Positions 10,050 through 26,412 of a stretch of 64,000 bases of DNA are shown here, in pieces. The stretch spans positions 1 to 64,000 of the forward strand of contig JAUWBF010000008.1 in the NCBI GenBank assembly GCA_030601755.1, read 5' to 3'. Both the position numbers and the translations under genes were made by a program. The notes below the pieces were generated by a model. It was not told the DNA's origin. It made no database searches and saw nothing but the letters and a program-made list of their open reading frames with translations. Each line of letters starts with the position of its first letter. Position 1 is the stretch's first letter. Origin of the DNA: Verrucomicrobiota bacterium (lineage in GTDB: Bacteria; Verrucomicrobiota; Verrucomicrobiia; Opitutales; Opitutaceae).

Positions 10050-10081
10050 GAAAAAGACTAACGTAGCTGGTTAGTTTTTTT
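10050..10081 (+). repeat. First copy of a 32-bp direct repeat that forms a hairpin
   Basis: This 32-bp sequence is identical to 10501-10532. It folds as ACTAAC (10056-10061) pairing with GTTAGT (10070-10075), with flanking A-run and T-run (seven T), so it also looks like an intrinsic terminator. It ends two bases before the ATG of the small gene at 10084 and lies 56 nt after the methyltransferase stop. Confidence 0.9.
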
Positions 10082-10083
10082 CC

Positions 10084-10512
10084 ATGGAACGAACCCATTT
10101 GTCCACGAACTCCGCGGTCCGGCTGATGGAGGCCCTCGGACAGGCCGCGTTCGTCGCGGCCGAGGCCGGCGCGCTGCACGCCTACGAACAACTGCGGCCC
10201 AAACGCAAAGGCGGCTTCCGTCAACGGCGGCAACCCGGACAGGCCACCCCGCTGTGGAACGTGCTGGCCGCGGAACTGCGCGGCGAATTACGCGAACATG
10301 GAGCCAAGAAGCGGTTGGCCGATCATTTGGGCGTGCCGGCGCAACGCCTGAGCGAGTTCCTTAACGCTCGTCAGCCGCGACTGCCCGACGGCGAGGTGAC
10401 CCTGCGGTTGCTGCACTGGCTCAGCGAGCGCCAAGCCGGCCGCGACCCGACCCTCACCCTGCCGCGCAAACCCCTCGGCCGCCCCGGCAAACCGACCGCC
10501 GAAAAAGACTAA
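10084..10512 (+). CDS. Small HTH-like putative DNA-binding protein framed by identical hairpins
   Basis: This 142-residue basic protein has a helical N-terminal half (RLMEALGQAAFVAAEAGAL). Its central segment reads like a lambda-repressor/XRE helix-turn-helix: KKRLADHLGVPAQRLSEFLN, about residues 77-96, followed by LRLLHWLSERQ. The C-terminal tail PRKPLGRPGKP is proline/arginine-rich and resembles an AT-hook core (GRP). I infer DNA binding. No Shine-Dalgarno sequence is visible; the ATG directly follows the T-run of the first 32-bp repeat. The gene ends in GAA-AAA-GAC-TAA, and this stop codon lies inside the second repeat copy (10501-10532). The gene therefore sits exactly between two copies of one palindrome, suggesting autoregulation or a cassette-like unit. 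Confidence 0.75.
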   Translation: MERTHLSTNSAVRLMEALGQAAFVAAEAGALHAYEQLRPKRKGGFRQRRQPGQATPLWNVLAAELRGELREHGAKKRLADHLGVPAQRLSEFLNARQPRLPDGEVTLRLLHWLSERQAGRDPTLTLPRKPLGRPGKPTAEKD

Positions 10513-10533
10513 CGTAGCTGGTTAGTTTTTTTT
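10501..10533 (+). repeat. Second copy of the 32-bp hairpin repeat, containing the gene's stop codon
   Basis: It is identical to 10050-10081 over 32 bp, plus one extra T. The TAA stop of the preceding gene (10510-10512) forms part of the left arm ACTAAC, and the right arm GTTAGT runs into eight T. It would act as a terminator for the small HTH-like gene. Confidence 0.9.
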
Positions 10534-10587: not shown

Positions 10588-10660
10588 AGTGGCACAGACA
10601 TTCTTGTCTGTGCTCCGAGCGCGACGTCGCACCTGCACAGACAGGAATGTCTGTGCCACG
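10588..10660. repeat. Two head-to-head hairpin repeats (BIME-like)
   Basis: Hairpin 1 is GCACAGACA-ttct-TGTCTGTGC (10592-10613) and hairpin 2 is GCACAGACA-ggaa-TGTCTGTGC (10635-10656). The outer parts (GTGGCACAGACATTC and its complement) make the whole unit one large inverted repeat. It lies between two convergent genes. A short Cys/Ser-coding-looking tandem (CGGCTGTCCG-type, about 10690-10725) follows it. Nothing else is seen in this 247-bp gap. Confidence 0.85.
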
Positions 10661-23528: not shown

Positions 23529-24410
23529 ATGCCTCCGCTCATCCTCTGGTTTCTCGATGGCCGGGCTTTTGTGATCTGCGCCGTCGTCTGCCTGCTGGGT
23601 TTTGTCTGGATGGCCGCGGGTGTTCGTTTGCTCGGATTGCGCCGCGCGCTGGTGTGGGTGGCGTTGGCGGGGCTGGTCGTGCCGGTGACGTCGACGCCGA
23701 TCATGTGGCCGCTGCAAATCGCTCCGTTCGCCGTGGCGCTGGCGGGTTTGATCGTCGTGTGGCGCAAAGCCGCCGCCCGGCGGACGGTGCGGGTATGGGG
23801 ACTGGTCGGCGTGCTGGCGGTGGGCGTCGCGTTGTTTGCCGAGCTGCGGTGGTGGCCGCGTGCGACGATCACCGGAGCGGAGAATGGCGTGGTGGTGATC
23901 GGCGATTCGCTCAGCGCTGGCATCGGCGGCGCGGAAACCGTCTGGCCGCGTCAACTCGCCGAGCGCGCGCGGCTCGACGTGGTGTCGGTGGCGTTTCCCG
24001 GTGCGCGCATCGCCGACTGGCGACGACAACTCGCGCGGGCGGACGTCGGCGGGCGCGTGGTCGTGGTGCTGCTCGGCGGAAACGACATGCTGGGCCGCGG
24101 CTCGGCCGAGGCGTTTCATGATGAGCTGGAGGCGCTGGTGCTCGCGGTGCGCGAACGCGGAGGCCGGCCGTTGCTGATCGAGTTCCCGGTGTTGCCGGCA
24201 CGAGGAGGTTTCGGCCACGCGATGCGCGCGGTGGCGGCGAAGCACGACGTGCCGCTCCTGCATCGGCGTTTTCTGGCCGCGGTGCTGCAGGCGCCGGGCG
24301 CGACGGTCGATGGACTGCACCTCTCGGAATCCGGCCACCGCGCCATGGCGAGGACGATCATGCTCAGCCTCACGTCCCTTTCCGAGTCCCCGGCTCCCGG
24401 CGAAGAGTAA
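23529..24410 (+). CDS. Membrane-anchored SGNH/GDSL hydrolase
   Basis: I start this gene at the ATG at 23529 (MPPLILWF), because the eight upstream residues overlap the VapC remnant; the product has 293 residues. Three or four N-terminal membrane segments fill about residues 1-105. A periplasmic SGNH-hydrolase domain follows: block I VVVIGDSLSAG with the catalytic Ser (about residue 126), block III VVVLLGGNDM, and block V DGLHLSESGHRAMA with the catalytic Asp and His. It is probably an esterase or lysophospholipase acting at the envelope. The last codons GAA-GAG-TAA lie inside a perfect terminator hairpin. Confidence 0.88.
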   Translation: MPPLILWFLDGRAFVICAVVCLLGFVWMAAGVRLLGLRRALVWVALAGLVVPVTSTPIMWPLQIAPFAVALAGLIVVWRKAAARRTVRVWGLVGVLAVGVALFAELRWWPRATITGAENGVVVIGDSLSAGIGGAETVWPRQLAERARLDVVSVAFPGARIADWRRQLARADVGGRVVVVLLGGNDMLGRGSAEAFHDELEALVLAVRERGGRPLLIEFPVLPARGGFGHAMRAVAAKHDVPLLHRRFLAAVLQAPGATVDGLHLSESGHRAMARTIMLSLTSLSESPAPGEE

Positions 24411-24428
24411 CCCATTGGGTTACTCTTT
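24403..24428 (+). terminator. Hairpin terminator containing the SGNH gene's stop codon
   Basis: Perfect 11-bp arms AAGAGTAACCC (24403-24413) and GGGTTACTCTT (24417-24427) enclose a 3-nt loop and are followed by T. The TAA stop (24408-24410) is within the left arm. A near-identical element ends the minus-strand gene at 26403. Confidence 0.88.
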
Positions 24429-26040: not shown

Positions 26041-26402
26041 AAAGCCATAAAGCCGACCGGCTGAGGCTACGCGGCGGGGAGGGGGTGCGGTAGGCTGTCG
26101 GCATGAAGACGATCACCACGCTGAGCTCACTGGTCTTGGGTCAATTGCGGGCGCTCCACGCGGCGGAGAATAAGGATCGCTCGCCGACAGCGGTGGCGGT
26201 TGGGCGTGCGGCTGGTCGACGGGAACAGGCCGATCTGGCTGGAAGAGGAAATGCTCCGGGAAAACCCTTCGCGTCCGCACGACCATCGGATGCGCCCCGC
26301 AGTTGGTTGTAACGGGCTGAGGGCTGATGAAATCACCGTCGCCGGCTTCATGGCACTGGCGTGGGAGCAGGGGCGATCGCCGCAAAAGAGTAACCTAATG
26401 GG
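26041..26402. other. Intergenic region upstream of MocR gene and after a convergent terminator
   Basis: This 362-bp stretch holds only a doubtful small frame (26103-26312) and ends at the hairpin 26383-26412. The remainder shows no family-like coding sequence that I can support. Confidence 0.4.
26103..26312 (+). CDS. Doubtful 69-residue frame, possibly a gene fragment
   Basis: It starts MKTITTLSSLVLGQLRALHA and then becomes Arg/Ala-rich. The first 25 residues look like a genuine helical N-terminus. The sequence that continues naturally (IWLEEEMLRENP) lies in another frame from about 26200, which would fit a frameshifted remnant of a small protein. No family is recognised. It may equally be chance. 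Confidence 0.2.
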   Translation: MKTITTLSSLVLGQLRALHAAENKDRSPTAVAVGRAAGRREQADLAGRGNAPGKPFASARPSDAPRSWL

Positions 26403-26412
26403 TTACTCTTCG
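26383..26412 (-). terminator. Hairpin terminator containing the stop codon of the gene ending at 26403
   Basis: On the minus strand, AAGAGTAACC pairs with GGTTACTCTT around a 5-nt loop and is followed by four T. The stop TAA (26405-26403) is part of the left arm, and the coding sequence ends GAA-GAG-TAA exactly as in the SGNH gene. It is almost the same sequence as 24403-24428. Confidence 0.85.

Follow-up and report, generated by a model that had tools for sequence, protein, structure and literature searches.

The locus considered here poses a simple question, namely why a small gene coding for a putative DNA-binding protein should be enclosed between two identical hairpin-forming repeats. 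The window, as we term the whole 64,000-nucleotide stretch analyzed, carries on its forward strand a 32-bp repeat (GAAAAAGACTAACGTAGCTGGTTAGTTTTTTT) at positions 10050-10081 and 10501-10532, the two copies being 100% identical, 451 bp apart from start to start and alike only as far as the repeat edges, at both of which identity stops. The left copy ends 2 bp ahead of the ATG of a 142-aa open reading frame (10084-10512, forward strand), and the right copy holds its stop codon TAA (10510-10512). Both copies fold into a hairpin with a 12-bp stem and a 7-nt loop (-10.5 kcal/mol, z = -4.6). Coordinates and folding thereby confirm the arrangement described in the first-pass annotation of this sequence, which proposed three explanations for it: a protein binding its own palindrome at both ends, an excisable cassette, or duplicated terminators. 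The 17-bp core of the repeat, CTAAC-GTAGCTG-GTTAG, lies at 10058-10074 in the left copy and at 10509-10525 in the right one, both on the forward strand. Just downstream, at 10589-10659, an inverted pair (GCACAGACATTCTTGTCTGTGC / GCACAGACAGGAATGTCTGTGC) represents another palindromic repeat type, for which Rfam returned only sub-threshold, chance microRNA-like models.

The repeat is not specific to the window gene, nor is it terminator-like in its placement. With up to three mismatches, the core occurs in about 47 copies spread over many contigs of the 3.55-Mb genome, an abundance far beyond chance, since the reversed control pattern yields 0 copies. Gene calls from a simple in-house program place 46 of the 47 copies in intergenic DNA and one inside a gene; among the former, 28 have co-directional neighbours, 8 lie between convergent and 7 between divergent genes, and 3 are at contig ends. 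An intergenic palindrome of 20-40 bp in many copies is what characterizes REP-like elements, and the counts observed in relatives are similar. The core of this family (CTAAC-GTAKCTG-GTTAG) is nearly invariant over the 47 copies, loop included, and its A-rich left arm pairs with a T-rich right arm; one outer arm pair clearly covaries (A-T/T-A, a result equalled in 0 of 2000 shuffles), and another does so more weakly. The exact core was found in none of 53 related genera, and an exact 19-mer search of named genomes was likewise negative. Four copies (C91:17846, C120:15983, C120:16198 and C121:2694) share a variant right arm, GTGATT (ACTAACGTATCTGGTGATT), that breaks the hairpin, suggesting either a sub-family or a decayed lineage. 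It was also observed that the palindrome often provides the stop codon of the abutting gene through the TAA in CTAAC (for example at C36:15831, C54:4348, C69:13697 and window position 10501), and on contig C69 a single palindrome copy contains the ends of two convergent genes.

Thirty of the approximately 47 copies make up 15 close pairs. Pairs belonging to one family favour spacings close to 45, 55 and 66 bp, which differ by roughly a helical turn, and 0 of 2000 random sets were equally periodic; such spacing favours a protein acting on double-stranded DNA. A short TTTCAGAGG-like motif (TTTCAGAGG / CCTCTGAAA) recurs, far above expectation, in the spacers of paired palindromes of two different families in this genome (e.g. 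L027, 1911-1936); it is also found beside palindromes in L063. The notion that pair and spacer constitute a single copied element was rejected, because the spacers of family-A pairs are alike only in a short motif.

The protein encoded between the two repeats presents only sub-threshold matches, to the YdaS, HigA and HTH families; its YdaS match scores 14.8 bits against a curated cut-off of 30, and 8 of 29 family members match YdaS at E<0.01. In its AlphaFold2 model (pLDDT 82) an arginine-rich linker joins an N-terminal helix to an HTH bundle, and its best PDB matches, weak as they are (E>0.5), are mostly HTH proteins (CapH, the phage 186 regulator, YdaS and SinR). We designate it here a YdaS/Cro-like HTH protein and predicted palindrome binder, in which codons 84-96 (VPAQRLSEFLNAR; 10333-10371, forward strand) would form recognition helix 3, as suggested by the modelled helix at residues 86-94 and by the residue tracking reported below. 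Domain searches of the protein revealed no recombinase, catalytic or Y1 domain, PADLOC gave no match and a scan of viral contigs returned no relative. Homologues are present in 17 of the 57 genomes searched, its own included, and a sample of 388 genomes from the phylum places them essentially in one family, the named relatives being mostly Opitutaceae/Opitutia assemblies.

In other Opitutaceae genera the homologues are bracketed in the same way, each by a different palindrome. These palindromes have a common 17-bp layout consisting of a 5-bp arm, a 7-bp centre (usually nnAWTnn) and a second 5-bp arm, and the core of the window repeat shows the same 5+7+5 arrangement. A 17-bp palindrome lies within 250 bp of the gene at 45 of the 58 loci in the combined set and on both sides at 31 of them, as compared with 47/550 and 1/550, respectively, for other genes used as a control; the second set, which comes from another collection with partly the same genomes, gives 29/32 and 22/32. 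Among the 13 of 58 loci lacking a palindrome under this filter is the window locus, which is missed because the centre of its palindrome differs, and L073 and L081 are positive under a looser filter. The flanking copies are direct or inverted, indifferently. The genome under study harbors three paralogues and three palindrome families: CTAACGTAKCTGGTTAG (about 47 copies), cognate to the window gene; GTAACCYAWTRGGTTAC, of the GTAACC type (32-33 copies), cognate to the paralogue on contig C131; and GTCACTTAATAAGTGAC, cognate to the paralogue on contig C119. Two dispersed copies of the second family fall within the window, GTAACCCATTGGGTTAC at 24407-24423 and GTAACCTAATGGGTTAC at 26390-26406.

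The sequence of the palindrome varies in step with that of the predicted recognition helix. Palindrome distances correlate with helix-3 distances (Mantel r = 0.47, P = 0.0002) but not significantly with distances over the remaining protein sequence (r = 0.09), both values being without phylogenetic correction. In particular, three helix residues go with individual palindrome positions throughout the family: residue 86 with position 1, residue 88 with position 5 and residue 89 with position 3. When residue 86 is R or K, G1 is favoured by 36:3, as against 0:6 for other residues (Fisher 1e-5, without phylogenetic correction), and the exceptions are three R86 loci of a single class with the palindrome TGTTCG. 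Similarly, R88 accompanies C5 by 34:6, as against 0:5 for other residues, which have A or T in 5/5 cases (Fisher 4e-4, again uncorrected for phylogeny), while L89 pairs with A3 and V or I at this residue mostly with C3. In the second set P86 goes with T1 in 3/3 cases and R86 with G1 in 25/25, and the window protein (A86, R88 and L89, with palindrome letters C1, C5 and A3) fits the same code. With bracketing retained as the palindromes change, and helix residues tracking their letters, the comparison strongly supports the proposal that the gene product would bind its own palindrome at both ends.

Several of the gene loci are syntenic across genera. Between the congeners G213 and G225 the neighbouring genes are 91-95% identical versus 63-69% for the HTH protein, and the palindromes switch as well, with GTAACC in one case facing a GTCACC/GTAACC mixture and TTGCC in another facing TTTGC. 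Collinear stretches measuring 340 and 380 kb have part of their dispersed sites in common, these showing compensated changes in the arms, and also contain sites confined to one species; we interpret the changes at shared sites as concerted evolution. In the L269/L268 neighbourhood, G213 has a palindrome at C1:2512484 and G225, in the corresponding intergenic position, a different repeat-like insert (TGTCATTGCGAGGAGCCGCAGGCGACGCGGCAATCC) on C12, near position 426900 (approximate). The number of copies also follows the presence of the gene. The GTAACC-type palindrome (GTAACCYAWTRGGTTAC) reaches 8-52 copies in 8/8 genomes with the matching gene and 0 copies in 16/16 gene-less genomes, including congeners in three genera. 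Against this pattern, G003 (16 copies) and G036 (12 copies) carry GTAACC palindromes with no detected matching gene; both possess other gene types, and these copies are possibly orphan families left after gene loss or a change in specificity. For GTCACGTAWTACGTGAC the count rises to as many as 71, the genomes that carry it being mostly gene-bearing. Also at odds with the pattern, G020 has 20 GTCACG copies and the only gene detected there sits at GTCACC palindromes.

We put at roughly 70% the probability that the window gene encodes a YdaS/Cro-like, autoregulating DNA-binding protein accompanied by a dispersed and co-evolving family of REP-like sites, with no linked transposase. The features behind this reading can be traced directly in the sequences: the arrangement of the locus, the dispersal of the palindromes, their association with the gene, the helix-3 correlation, the gain and loss of sites and the compensatory changes. 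From them we infer binding of the palindrome by the protein, its dimerisation, repression of its own gene and the part played by the dispersed copies. The protein is predicted to bind, probably as a dimer, both the palindrome bracketing its own gene and the dispersed copies; binding at the start-adjacent copy would probably repress its own transcription, and occupation of the single and paired sites elsewhere might coat or bridge intergenic DNA, as expected of a factor that binds REPs, shapes chromosome architecture or regulates genes. The gene and its palindrome would then constitute one heritable unit, each paralogue having its own palindrome family, in which protein specificity and palindrome sequence would change jointly and fast and relatives without the gene would be devoid of palindromes. 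A point against this reading is that the palindromy often continues into the arms beyond the core, a feature for which a plain double-stranded DNA operator would have no need; the extended hairpin arms hint that a hairpin or cruciform step may be involved in addition.

Several other explanations have to be weighed against this one. That the gene is flanked by chance by duplicated intrinsic terminators finds some support in the window copies, which are stable hairpins with a T-run on one side, but in most copies the T-rich arm pairs within the stem, the loop and core are nearly invariant, a terminator scan did not pick the sites and seven copies lie between divergent genes, almost as many as the eight between convergent ones; we regard this as the least credible of the alternatives. 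A genome-wide occurrence of the repeat as an ordinary terminator had been named in the first-pass annotation as part of the outcome that would refute its reading, and of this the copy number was borne out and the terminator-like placement was not. The idea of an excisable or mobile cassette, with the two identical direct repeats as recombination sites, fares hardly better and is highly improbable, given that the protein has no recombinase or catalytic domain, that homologues are flanked by direct or inverted copies alike, that at several loci syntenic copies of the gene stay put across genera and that no allele lacking the gene and holding a single palindrome was observed. Nor was an integron-type attC array seen. 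A more serious candidate, albeit still an unlikely one, is an ordinary global transcription factor, with the palindromes as selected operators of its regulon and nothing mobile or selfish about them. The predicted HTH fold, the pairs at near-helical spacing, the intergenic placement and the retention of orthologous sites, with compensated changes, from one congener to another are all congruent with it. Against it speak a placement without promoter preference, the gain and loss of palindromes from one congener to another, their extension into long hairpins and a specificity that differs between congeners with 91-95% identical neighbours, a shift that a regulon of dozens of target genes should prevent. 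Regulators of the YdaS, Cro and C.protein type (XRE) would share with the window protein the predicted fold, palindromic sites by the start codon and likely autoregulation; in the present system, sites are found also downstream of the gene and in dozens of unrelated intergenic places, no family match reaches its curated cut-off, and specificity changes between congeners.

It may also be asked whether the palindromes are REPs of a non-autonomous kind that owe their spread to a Y1 (RAYT-type) transposase from another locus, the HTH protein being no more than a passenger or repressor. Their REP-like size, intergenic dispersal and pairing, the three Y1_Tnp genes of this genome and the abundance of GTAG-type REPs reported in Opitutus terrae (PMC3733652) speak for this possibility, and the resemblance to REP/REPIN sequences and their RAYT (TnpA-REP) is extensive: both systems involve short, lineage-specific palindromes that lie between genes, number in the tens and often come in pairs, and a single-copy, apparently palindrome-specific gene that is flanked by them and diversifies together with them. 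Yet the flanked gene here codes for an HTH protein and not for a Y1 HUH transposase, the palindromes are near none of the three Y1 genes (0/3 loci) and follow instead the specificity of the HTH gene, and no conserved tag was found outside the stem in 47 copies, neither GTAG nor CGTC standing at the stem foot and the GTAG of the window family lying in the loop. Lacking a Y1 domain, a tag and Y1 linkage, the system does not qualify as a RAYT one, and we consider Y1-driven spread improbable. CGTC-type REPs are, similarly, dispersed palindromes without a dedicated transposase (PMC3733652); unlike the palindromes reported here, they have no partner gene described, whereas here a DNA-binding gene is bracketed and the CGTC tag is absent.

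The HTH gene and its matching palindrome have the appearance of an undescribed gene-repeat system whose two partners, protein and repeat, co-evolve. A limited search of the open-access literature located work on REP/RAYT and nothing on the pairing of an HTH gene with palindromes, so that the earlier statement that no named system has this form stands within that search. Beyond the reading of an autoregulating protein with dispersed sites, it can be conjectured, with rather more doubt than confidence, that this is a transposase-free class of gene-repeat unit, in which a fast-evolving HTH protein and its palindromes might proliferate together by homing, palindrome copying or a drive-like process, with an arms race in specificity at a tempo resembling that of PRDM9 and its hotspots. 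If the system is what it appears to be, REP-like repeat families need not rely on a Y1 transposase, and dozens of natural protein-site pairs would spell out a recognition code for the HTH. Moreover, the function of dispersed palindromes in bacteria, an old question, would become open to testing, given the existence of a partner protein that can be purified and of congeners with and without the gene.
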